Origin: Purpureocillium takamizusanense
Taxonomy: Eukaryota > Ascomycota > Sordariomycetes > Hypocreales > Ophiocordycipitaceae
Reading direction: 5' to 3'
Length of the DNA: 64,000 nt
NCBI RefSeq assembly: GCF_022605165.1
Contig: NC_063070.1
Span: 1,302,001 to 1,366,000 of the forward strand
The notes under the pieces are model-generated. The model was not told the origin of the DNA and searched no databases. It was given only the letters and a program-made list of their open reading frames with translations. Below are positions 52,892 to 57,465 of the stretch, in pieces (position 1 is the first letter of the stretch; every line of letters begins with the position of its first letter). Position numbers and translations under genes: made by a program.

Positions 52892-55800
52892 ATGGCCCCC
52901 AAGCCGGCCCATTTCGAGGAATGGTGGCTCACCGCCGGCCTCGACGCCCTCACACGCCTCGTCGACAACCGTGACATCGCCTTTCGTCCTCGCGACGTTG
53001 GCTACGTGCAGGTTATTCACCGCAAGCTGCGCGCGTTCGACAACGACCCAACCCTCGAGGACAGCCTAACAGAGAGCATGGCGTCCATCTACACCGAGCA
53101 AAAGGCCTTCCCCAGCGGTGACTTCAACCCCCGCAGAAAGATGAGCGAGGCACGCGACTCCATCTTCCGGCGCCTCGAGGACGGCGGCATCGACGTCGGC
53201 CGCGCGCTCGACGGCCTCGAGAAACTCGACGTGGTGGAGACGCATCGCCGGAGACTCCTCGCGGCGACCCAGGACGCCATCCGCAAAGGCGGCACGCCAG
53301 ACGAGTATCACCGGCGGCTCATTGACGAGCTGGACCGCCAGACGAGCAACCGATACCGCCAATTCCACATGGGTCTTCGGGCCTGCGTAAGTCTCAGACA
53401 TGGCTTTTCTTTTCTATCGTTTGTGCCTACTCTTGTTTGTTCTCCGCTGACGGCACAACTCGACTGCAGATTCTCATGGACGCTCTGTGCCCGAGCACGG
53501 GCACCAAAAATTCCCCCGTGGCGGTCATGGCGCGCCTCAACGCCCTCTTCCCGGCAAACGCCATCCTTGAGTGCGAGACTGACGTCGACGTCACGCCATA
53601 CTCGGCCGGGCTGCGGGACAGCATCCGCTTCTCCGTCTACGAACACCTGATGGGGGAGGACCCGCACGCCCAGGAAGCCCTGCAGGCCATCTACATGCGC
53701 CTCTTTGCGTGGTGCGACATCCCCGGGTACGCACAGGCGTAGGAGGCCATGATGCGGTACTCGGAGGAAGTCAAGAAGCTCGAGATGATGTGCCTGTCAG
53801 CCCTGGGCGCCATGGAGCGGGCCGCCGCCGGCGGTGCCGGCCCCTCCTCCTCGGCGGGCTCGTCCTTTGTCGCGGTGTCGGACGGCTCGAGCTCCATGAG
53901 CCCCTTTGTCGTCACGCCCGCGGTCGGAAGTAGTCCTGAGGCGACGGCGGCCTTTGCAGACAGGTCGTCGCTGCCATCGGCATCGTCGTCCTCGGCGCGC
54001 ACCAGCTCGCGAGTCGCCTCAGCACCGCCCGTCCCCAACGCACTCCTCAAGGGCATGCCTGGACGGGAGCTCTCGGCCTCCAAGACCGACGGCGCCGCCT
54101 TCGCCGGCGACCACGCCGCGCCGCCCATCCTGGCGTACCCGGACGACCTGTCCACGACCGAGTTCGACCAGCATCCTCTGGCCCGCGAGATGAACCTCAG
54201 CTCCGCGGAGAAAGCACGCCTCGGCCTCATCATCCCCAAGCAGATCCCCAGTCGAGACTTCTAGTACAACTTCGACAGCGACGACGAGCTCGCGGATGAC
54301 GAAAAGGTCGTCAGTAGAATCATGCCCAAGAGCCCCAGCAACGGCCTGAGGGCATTTAGGCGCTTCACCGGCGCCAAGTCGGATGCGCCGCCGGTCCCCC
54401 CGCTGCCACCGATCCCGGAGTCTCTGAAGCCCGGCGTGAGCAAGGGCCTGGCCAAGCTGCTCGAGAGGCGGAAACTCCGCATGGAGCAGATCGACTCTGA
54501 AGCGTCGGCAGGCACCCCGATGCCGTCTGCGAAGAAGAATGCCACTCTGTCCGCATCGTTCGGCCGGAGCGGCGGCCGACCGGCGCTCACAACCAAATAC
54601 TCCAACCCGGAACTACGTGTTCCAAAGTCAAGAGCATCTCACAACACGTCTTCGTCGGGCAGTTCGGGCCGCCTCACACCGACTTCGTCCAGGAGCCCTT
54701 CCTACCCGGCGAGCCAGAACGTACACGAGCAGATTGAGACCTACGACAGAGTCGACAAGTTCCCCGCCAGCTTTGCCCTGGCGGCCCCCCGAATATCACC
54801 CATGGAGTACACCCGCACGTATCTCCTTGAAAAGGCCGCCGCGGAGCGCGAGGGCCGCGAGTGCCAGCTCCCAGCACCAGAGCAGAACTGGCACTGGACC
54901 CCAAACTGGGAAAGCTTCCTCATAGTTCCCTCCATCCCGAAGAATATCAACCGCGAAGCAGCAGCCCAGCCGCAGGTCGCCGACCCCGAGGAGCAGGATG
55001 GCTCGGATGCCGAGTCCGCAACGACAGTCAAGATGGACAACAACAACAACAAGCCTTCATCGGCGCCTTGCCCGAGACTGTCGCTGAACCTAGGCGGCAT
55101 GACCGCCCTGTTTCCTTCGGTCATGAACCTTGCGCGTTTGGGTATGGATGATGGCCAGGACGGCCCGCTGCCTGGCAGAAGCGAAGCAAGCCCACAGAGG
55201 CCGATGCGCAAGAGCCGCAGCTCCTCCCTCCTCCAACATAGCGTGCTAACGCGGATTACAGAAGAAACATCGGACGATGACGAGCCGGAACGCAGTCTGC
55301 TTAGGATGCGATCGCGCTCCACCGAGAGTCTGGCTCGCCCTGAACCCCAGGTCGGCTCACATGGCTATCTGGTGGGCGCGAGTACCGGACTCACATCTGA
55401 ACCGGAGCAAGATTTGGGCTCCTACGGCCAGGCTGTGCCCTATGACCACGCTGGGACAATGGCTTGGCTCAACCGTGCCGAAGTGTCGTCCGTCTACTCG
55501 GCCGAAAGCGCCGACACCGCCGTCCGAGTTGGCAGTGCCGGGCCGAGCACGCCCAAGGCCGCTCAAGCACACACACCCACATCGTCGTCGCCAACGGTGG
55601 CATCGGACGTCCGACGACACAACGCCACACCGCTCTCGCCCTCCCACTCTGCTGTGCTACTGTCTCCGGCGTCGGCAAGGCCCGTGGTCGAGTACAGTCC
55701 CGCGTCCCTGGCGCCGTCGTGGCACGGGGTCGCATCTCCGGCGTCTTCTAGCCCCCGAAACGTCAACAAGGGCAAGGCTTTAGCAGGCGCGGGAGATGGG

Positions 55801-57465
55801 ACCGATCCAACGCAGCACGATCCCCGCCTTCTCCTTGACAGAGCCAACTCGGAGCAGTCGGTGCCCCGGCAGAAGAAGTCGGAGCAGCCCAAGTCGGTCC
55901 TTGACGACAGCATCGATCGGTCTGACCGGGCCACTGCCACCTCGGAGGCCAACCTCCACCCAGCGCCGCTCAAGGTCAGGAAACAACGCTCTCCGCCGGG
56001 CAAGGAATGGGACGCAGAGCGCTGCTCCATCATGTGGCAGGGCCTCTCCGACGAAATAGGCCAGAGGCTTGCAGAGTTTAGAAAGTTTGCAGATTCCGAC
56101 ACGGCCCGGGACAGTCGAGCACAGAGCGCTTCGCAGAACCCGCCCGGCGCGACGACTACGCCGACAAAGCAGGTACGTGGCTCCAGCTTGGCCAACAAAG
56201 TGCCATGCGAGACCTCGCTAGAGAATGAGTATGCTGACAAGAGAATTGTCGAGCAGCAACGTGCAGCGTCGGCGGTCGTGTCACCATCGTCGTCCGAGTT
56301 CACTCTCGACTCGGCCTGGATTCCATCGTTGACGATTCCAAGGAGCGAGAGTCATTCTGGGTTCACGCCGAGCCGTCCCAAGTCTGACAACAACAAACGG
56401 CACTCAGTGCTGCCGGACTCGCCCACGTTACCGGCACAGGACGTGTGTGGTCACGGATACGGGACGCCACCAGCATCTCTCGCTATGCGCCGGCGGCAGG
56501 AAAAAAGACAACAGTTGATGTCGCCAAGACAACAGCCCCAGCCGGAGCATGGAGCGCCTCGCGAGACGAACAGAAGCGTCTCATCCCCTGCTCCTGGGGC
56601 AAAGACCGCCCGAGACAGCGGCCCGCACAGTGGCCCTCCAGCGACAGCAAAGACACTCTCCTCCAAAGACAGCAGCTTCGCTCTGAACGAGTCCAAGGTT
56701 GCAGGCTCCGTCACGATGCTGCCACGGCTCAGGAGTTCAACGCCTGGGAGCAGCAAGTCGAGTGGCAGTCAGATCCCCGTGCCAGTCTCCCCTGCGACCC
56801 AGTTCGCGCAGTCGCCTGTCCATCTGATCAAGCGCAGGCCAGCTGCGCTCACTGCCATGACACCGCTCGCCTTCCAGCGATTTGATACCGCCGCCCGTCT
56901 CGCCACAGTAGCGGAGAAGTCCACTGGCAGAAGAACATCATCTTCCTCGGCTGAGAAGGAGACTCGCACACTCCGAGGTCCCTCGTCACTCAGCAACCTC
57001 CTGCGCAAGTATAGTCGCTCGAGGGTAAATGACAATGAGGCGGATGGCAGCTATGCCGCGCTTCAGGGGCAGTCGGGCAGGGGTGCCGGACTAAGAGCAG
57101 CATCTGGTGTGCTCAGAGCAGATGAGCAGCCACGGCGTCTTCGAAAGACTTCAAGCGAGGGACGCGCTCTCAAAGAGAAGAAGGAGCAGATCAACGAGCC
57201 TCAAGATGGGCTCATGACGAGCTCCGAGAGGCTGATGGGCCTCCAAAGCTTCATCGACAGACAGTCACCGTCCAGGCTACCCTCGCCATCGCCAGCCGCC
57301 GCCATGTCGTCGGCCGACAACGAGCTGAAGCACCCCGCCGAGTCGCAAGCCTCGAGAGCCAAGCAGTCTCTTGGCCGCCACGTCGATTCCAGGCCCAGCC
57401 GAAAACTTCAAAAGCCGAGCAAAGAGAATCTGCGGCTCGCTCGCGTGTCTAGCGGACGACTGTAG
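52892..57465 (+). CDS. Conserved fungal protein with two in-frame TAG codons
   Basis: Exons are 52892-53386 and 53470-57465 (GTAAGT donor, CTGAC branch point, CTGCAG acceptor). The frame is continuous for 1496 codons except for TAG at 53740-53742 and at 54262-54264. Taken literally, translation stops after 255 residues. The first part is a helical, structured domain (FEEWWLTAGLDALTRLVDN, then RYRQFHMGLRAC|ILMDALCPS and SIRFSVYEHLMGEDPHAQEA). Immediately after the first stop the sequence still looks like protein (EAMMRYSEEVKKLEMMCLSA), and after the second (YNFDSDDELADDEKVVSRIM) it runs 1067 more codons as a Ser/Pro/Arg-rich, phosphoprotein-like tail ending in LRLARVSSGRL. No frameshift occurs anywhere. 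I do not recognise the family. It is either functional through UAG recoding (A-to-I editing to Trp or readthrough) or a very young pseudogene by CAG-to-TAG change. Confidence 0.7.
53734..53751 (+). other. First in-frame TAG in a predicted hairpin loop
   Basis: TAG at 53740-53742 lies in a 7-nt loop (GTAGGAG). The loop is closed by GGC/GCC and extended by CA/TG with one bulged A, i.e. arms 53734-53738 and 53746-53751. The A to be edited would be 53741. Confidence 0.5.
54251..54276 (+). other. Second in-frame TAG in a predicted hairpin loop
   Basis: TAG at 54262-54264 lies in a 14-nt loop between GTCGAG (54251-54256) and TTCGAC (54271-54276), which pair over six positions including one G-U. 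The A to be edited would be 54263. Confidence 0.5.

Follow-up and report, generated by a model that had tools for sequence, protein, structure and literature searches.

The gene JDV02_003964 of Purpureocillium takamizusanense, an insect pathogen (PMC9302088) of the family Ophiocordycipitaceae, order Hypocreales, lies on the plus strand of a 64,000-nucleotide stretch of contig C3 (C3:1302001-1366000; here the window, whose positions are used unless another contig is named). Two in-frame TAG codons interrupt its frame, TAG1 at codon 256 and TAG2 at codon 430, and the comparisons described below make it a well-supported, strong candidate for membership of a known class, that of the PUK1-like genes, rather than for a new class. 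It is probable, judging from sequence comparison, that both UAGs are changed to UGG (Trp) by adenosine-to-inosine (A-to-I) editing of the mRNA. Under this mechanism one gene across the Hypocreales would encode a protein of about 1,500 residues; the editing would most likely fall to Tad2-Tad3, the tRNA deaminase, acting with Ame1, its cofactor in the sexual stage; the full-length protein would be made mainly in fruiting bodies, and other stages would yield a 255-residue product without the last helix of the N-terminal domain. A first-pass annotation of the window had assigned the gene to this UAG-to-UGG class, and comparison with relatives supports the assignment, with editing, enzyme, stage and Trp as the inserted residue inferred.

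Most of what is understood about edited premature stops comes from Fusarium graminearum and Neurospora. Here one stop appears to be order-wide with losses (one of them to Trp), while the other appears recent and derived from a Trp codon, so that the question of why fungi keep such stops and correct them in RNA becomes testable by comparing species. If this is true, many public gene models of the JDV02_003964 family are wrong at the TAG2 site.

Gene structure and reading frame

The first-pass annotation had described a single frame from the ATG at 52892 to a terminal TAG. Read without splicing, that frame meets many stops beyond about codon 250; it is open only once a phase-0 intron of 83 nucleotides (nt) at 53387-53469 (GTAAGT...CTGCAG) is removed, which joins two conserved frames. 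The spliced coding sequence comprises 4,491 nt, or 1,497 codons, with stops only at codons 256, 430 and 1497, all TAG, and the description of the TAGs at 53740 and 54262 as the only premature stops stands. The gene has the following parts:

52892..53386, + strand: exon 1, 165 codons; start of the conserved N-terminal helical domain; covered by relatives
53387..53469, + strand: intron, phase 0, 83 nt, GTAAGT...CTGCAG; required to link the conserved frames
53470..57465, + strand: exon 2; holds both premature TAGs and the terminal TAG
53740..53742, + strand: TAG1, codon 256; candidate edited stop, apparently young
53743..54261, + strand: inter-stop segment, 173 codons; the most strongly conserved stretch (85% both to P0051 and to P. 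lavendulum P0001)
54262..54264, + strand: TAG2, codon 430; candidate edited stop and the codon where the open reading frames (ORFs) of relatives end
54265..57462, + strand: post-TAG2 stretch, 1,066 open codons; YNFDSDDE immediately 3' of the stop; the annotated protein P0002 begins within it, at 54322
57463..57465, + strand: terminal TAG, codon 1497; its A falls within a hairpin loop with the shortest flank of 20 nt but outside one with flanks of 25-100 nt

The sequence on both sides of each TAG is protein-like, as had been proposed. The guanine-plus-cytosine (GC) content of third codon positions is raised (0.83 and 0.87 before the stops, 0.86 between them and 0.70 after TAG2), and all segments are conserved in P. 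lavendulum, at 54-85% by segment and at 7 of the 19 residues directly after TAG2. Ordinary pseudogene decay or an assembly error would account for two stops in a single gene and for the drop in third-position GC to 0.70 after TAG2, but either is most improbable, as the first-pass annotation had held of decay. No further stop occurs in 1,496 codons; the 1,066 codons after TAG2 contain none, against about 29.6 expected at the local base composition (P ~9e-14), and the other five frames over this stretch have 15 to 35 stops each. Among 60 ORFs of relatives, 59 end at the TAG2 codon, as described below, and the assembly combined HiSeq and Nanopore reads and was polished four times with Pilon (PMC9302088). 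When the window was scanned for coding-like pairs split by a single stop, six came up, two of them in JDV02_003964; the other four look like shadow frames, lying opposite longer ORFs or opposite this gene. The only stops that interrupt the frame are of the type that A-to-I editing converts to sense.

An apparently old stop at codon 430

TAG2 probably arose early in the Hypocreales and was for the most part retained, giving way in some lineages to sense codons, in one case Trp. Relatives are cited here by their row numbers in the protein searches, in each of which scoring was limited to the roughly 7,980-7,990 candidates with the most words in common. A profile of the 173 inter-stop residues gave 61 matches, one of them the window's own ORF (P0050); the rows of this search are 90%-identity clusters rather than species, nearly all without an organism name. 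Among the other 60 ORFs, 59 terminate at the residue before codon 430, many of them at only 33-55% identity, a figure to be read with the length limit of the search, which returned proteins of 69-303 residues and so favours early-ending ORFs and is silent on how many species are without the stop, but does not force ORFs to share one end codon. The exception is P0103 from Sodiomyces (Glomerellales), which has Val at site 2 and continues past it. The ORFs ending at site 2 include 90-99% matches to proteins of Beauveria, Trichoderma, Emericellopsis and Fusarium graminearum; Trichoderma and Emericellopsis belong to families of the Hypocreales other than Ophiocordycipitaceae.

The longer proteins (n=63, pooled from two protein searches and sorted partly by eye) include P0002, the annotated JDV02_003964 of the same species and a 100% match to the window. 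Codon 430 is spanned in 12 of them, 8 start after it and 43 are without it, so that annotation avoids the stop in 51 of the 63, the introns being read back from the proteins. In published work, edited stops have shown themselves in gene annotation through false introns and starts placed downstream (PMC4817773, PMC11169179). Some of the 43 gapped proteins read R-x-F-Y and then jump, resembling an intron that starts inside TA/GT; others jump and resume at Y-x-x-DS, resembling an intron that ends in TAG. Either type of intron, if called, implies that the stop is TAG. In F. graminearum, the ORF P0086 reads VKLGLLLPAELVDHRDY and then stops at site 2, whereas the annotated protein P0116 (99.1% identity to P0086 over 225 residues) skips VKLGLLLPAELVDHRDY and one further codon, the equivalent of a 54-nt intron, before picking up again at YDLDSEDE; an in-frame intron ending at site 2 requires AG, which would make the codon TAG there as well. 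Similarly, the Trichoderma ORF P0092 ends where P0110 and P0111 (98%) read R-K-F-Y. Read from the proteins in this way, the site-2 codons of the relatives would be TAG.

These gene models invite the explanation that the stops are removed as small in-frame introns, a weak rival in P. takamizusanense and a very unlikely one. Many relatives' proteins look as though such introns had been called, FgBUD14 provides a precedent of alternative splicing beside editing (review PMC11156358), and a GT-AG stretch of 51 nt at 54264-54314 would preserve the frame. The splice sites themselves argue against it: the frame-keeping candidates listed at TAG2 match 0-1 of four 5' consensus positions and have no branch-like motif, and those at TAG1 match 0-2 of four, some with a branch-like motif, while the genuine intron matches all four. 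Moreover, the relatives imply two incompatible introns, one ending at the TAG and one starting within it, and what they would cut out is conserved protein.

Alternatively, TAG2 could be a true end, with the N-terminal part and a downstream ORF of 1,047 residues translated separately, from another promoter or by reinitiation (for example at the Met at 54322). The species' own annotation, made with RNA-seq from shaken culture, does start P0002 at 54322, downstream of TAG2, and 8 of the 63 long proteins begin after site 2. This explanation is nevertheless unlikely. The residues directly after site 2, between the stop and that Met, are conserved (YNFDSDDE in the window and P0022, and YEFDSENE, YDLDSEDE and YDFDSEDD in other relatives), which argues for translation through codon 430, and the Colletotrichum proteins, P0001, P0022, P0041 and P0118 span site 2 as single proteins. 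The 12 spanning proteins comprise eight from Colletotrichum, with Thr or Ile at site 2, and P0001 (Lys), P0022 (Trp), P0041 (Tyr) and P0118 (Tyr); the last four are the rows nearer than Colletotrichum that carry sense there, none of them with Gln. The Trp of P0022, which groups in the tree with the Purpureocillium rows, is in keeping with editing of UAG to UGG. P0041 and P0118, with Tyr-Tyr at site 2, also start right after site 1, which may be a stop there too.

An apparently young stop at codon 256

In contrast to TAG2, TAG1 looks young: it is seen in the window and would be present in P. lavendulum and in P0051, which from its closeness (81% identity in the profile search, 85% in the segment comparison) is probably P. 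lilacinum. P0051 begins just past site 1, as does P0022. The P. lavendulum protein P0001, whose site-1 state was read by hand from the sequence, reads IYM-R-EAMM and is without 14 codons (42 nt) ending at or beside codon 256; no sense codon would need such a gap, which points to a stop. A tree was built from 94 of the 110 alignment rows, P0002, P0034, P0036, P0037, P0043-P0047 and P0050 being left out by name and the rest for having fewer than 75 residues in the segment; P0110-P0124, which were added later, are absent from it. In this tree P0003, P0049, P0022, P0001, P0051 and the window group together (100/93), and within them the last four (99/95). The nearest outgroup, the Tolypocladium row P0003 together with P0049, which groups with it, has Trp at site 1. 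TAG1 probably replaced a Trp codon close to the base of Purpureocillium.

RNA folds and sequence context

Both stops lie in predicted hairpin loops, as follows:

53717..53771, + strand: predicted stem-loop around TAG1, with a 7-nt loop at 53739-53745 (GUAGGAG) closed by GGC/GCC
54251..54276, + strand: predicted hairpin around TAG2, with a 6-bp stem and a 14-nt loop; the A of TAG2 is loop base 7

In tRNA, the edited A34 comes after U33 and stands third in an anticodon loop of seven bases. The A of TAG1 occupies the same position, base 3 of a 7-nt loop, in a 61-nt fold with a z-score of -3.01. Every flank tried between 20 and 100 nt gives this loop, and at the three flanks tested the A has an unpaired probability of 1.00. 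Only 3 of the 593 TAGs in the window show this geometry, TAG1 included. The A of TAG2 likewise stays within its 14-nt loop at all the flanks of 20-100 nt that were tried, with an unpaired probability of 0.56-0.61. At both stops the A has U directly before it and G directly after it (GUAGGAG for TAG1, CUAGUAC for TAG2), and the preferences reported for edited sites include U at -1 and a purine, A or G, at +1 (PMC9600606); five of the six preferences are found at TAG1 and four of the six at TAG2, where +2 is neutral. The anticodon-like loop, like the intron and the apparent age of TAG2, is missed by the first-pass annotation.

Ribosomal readthrough of UAG without editing would also account for the conservation on either side of TAG2. 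Strong readthrough contexts after UAG are of the CUA or CAAUUA type, and neither UAG precedes one; readthrough also leaves the loop geometry and the PUK1-like kinase site described below unexplained, and its probability is slight, a little below that of splicing.

If editing does restore the frame, TAG2 might have been kept by selection since the early Hypocreales as a switch, the short and the full-length proteins each having a role, with Purpureocillium later adding a tRNA-mimicking upstream stop that tightened it; this is a possible but rather doubtful history.

Editing machinery and other candidate edited genes in the genome

The same genome appears to hold a gene of the class. In a check of kinase matches, 13 of 140 in the genome had an internal TAG, and seven of these were opened. 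One, a CBK1/NDR-type kinase gene at C6:1870796, reads YDGRCD*WSIG, where TAG TGG is found and the TAG (C6:1870904-1870906, L024) replaces the first Trp of DWWS, the position at which yeast CBK1 and human STK38 have Trp-Trp. Its A lies in a predicted 10-nt hairpin loop. PUK1 has its edited stops in kinase subdomain nine, and the edited site of its N. crassa orthologue is UAGUGG; the C6 gene is probably the PUK1 orthologue of P. takamizusanense. With regard to the editor, Ame1 carries a DUF726 domain, and one of the three DUF726 genes found (C9:1773596, C1:4306024 and C5:2120778) may be Ame1. There are eight deaminase-domain matches, which may include Tad2 and Tad3. One of the papers that PMC9302088 cites names the species in its title as the anamorph of a Cordyceps, so a sexual stage exists. 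The published RNA-seq of the species comes from shaken potato dextrose culture (PMC9302088).

Observations that weigh against editing or against the proposed history of the stops

Several findings pull the other way. The first-pass annotation had proposed that Trp in homologues would favour editing and Gln a CAG-to-TAG mutation. Trp is indeed found in Tolypocladium (site 1) and in P0022 (site 2), and close relatives have no Gln at site 1 or at site 2, but Trp is not the sole tolerated residue. Across the 87 rows with letters on both sides of site 1, Arg predominates (56), followed by Tyr (10), Trp (8), Gln (4), Cys (4), Ile (3) and His (2), and one alignment places the Arg of P0001 in the site-1 column. 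Site 2 tolerates Lys and Tyr besides Trp, and Thr, Ile or Val in the Glomerellales rows; the rows with R-x-F-Y before a jump could in principle hold a sense Tyr. The deep forks of the tree leave room for more than one gain of TAG2. The TAG2 hairpin is no more stable than shuffles (z +0.55), and as background 219 of the 593 TAGs in the window lie in hairpin loops. The disfavoured bases are G at -2 in TAG1 and C at +4 in TAG2. Finally, RID and SPO22 are edited genes in F. graminearum; here neither the DNA-methylase genes, one of which should be RID, nor SPO22 showed a stop in the stretches matched.

Comparison with known systems and the protein product

The closest parallels are the PUK1-type premature stop correction (PSC) genes of F. 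graminearum and N. crassa, which share with JDV02_003964 a conserved frame that is intact but for in-frame UAG, a U just before the A of that codon, an A in a predicted hairpin loop and annotation that dodges the stop; PUK1 likewise has two stops. In JDV02_003964, by contrast, editing is predicted from sequence, there is no kinase domain match, and the two stops are 173 codons apart and seemingly of unequal age. CHE1 and ZAO, with the OLD deaminases, also have a conserved UAG corrected by A-to-I editing, as would be the case here, and their relatives show annotation artefacts of the same sort. Editing of CHE1 takes place in hyphae and that of ZAO upon virus infection; both are C2H2 zinc-finger transcription factors, whereas no Pfam domain reached the cut-off here. 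FgBUD14 is similar in having a UAG for which removal by editing and by splicing both need considering, but alternative splicing is reported there and the splice sites are weak here.

A search of the four gene segments gave no Pfam domain above the cut-off, and neither a kinase domain nor C2H2 zinc fingers were found in them. For the relative P0005, AlphaFold gives a confident model of roughly residues 1-285, an N-terminal helical domain whose last helix spans 250-282, with site 1 counted by hand at residue 254. The unedited product would end at residue 255, which according to this model is near the start of the last helix of the domain. A likeness of the protein to Poz1 is a lead only. P0002 is without 28 residues at about 56170-56256 (codons 1066-1093), resembling an in-frame intron (GTACGT...CAG); P. 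lavendulum codes through this gap, which may be an exitron or a false call.
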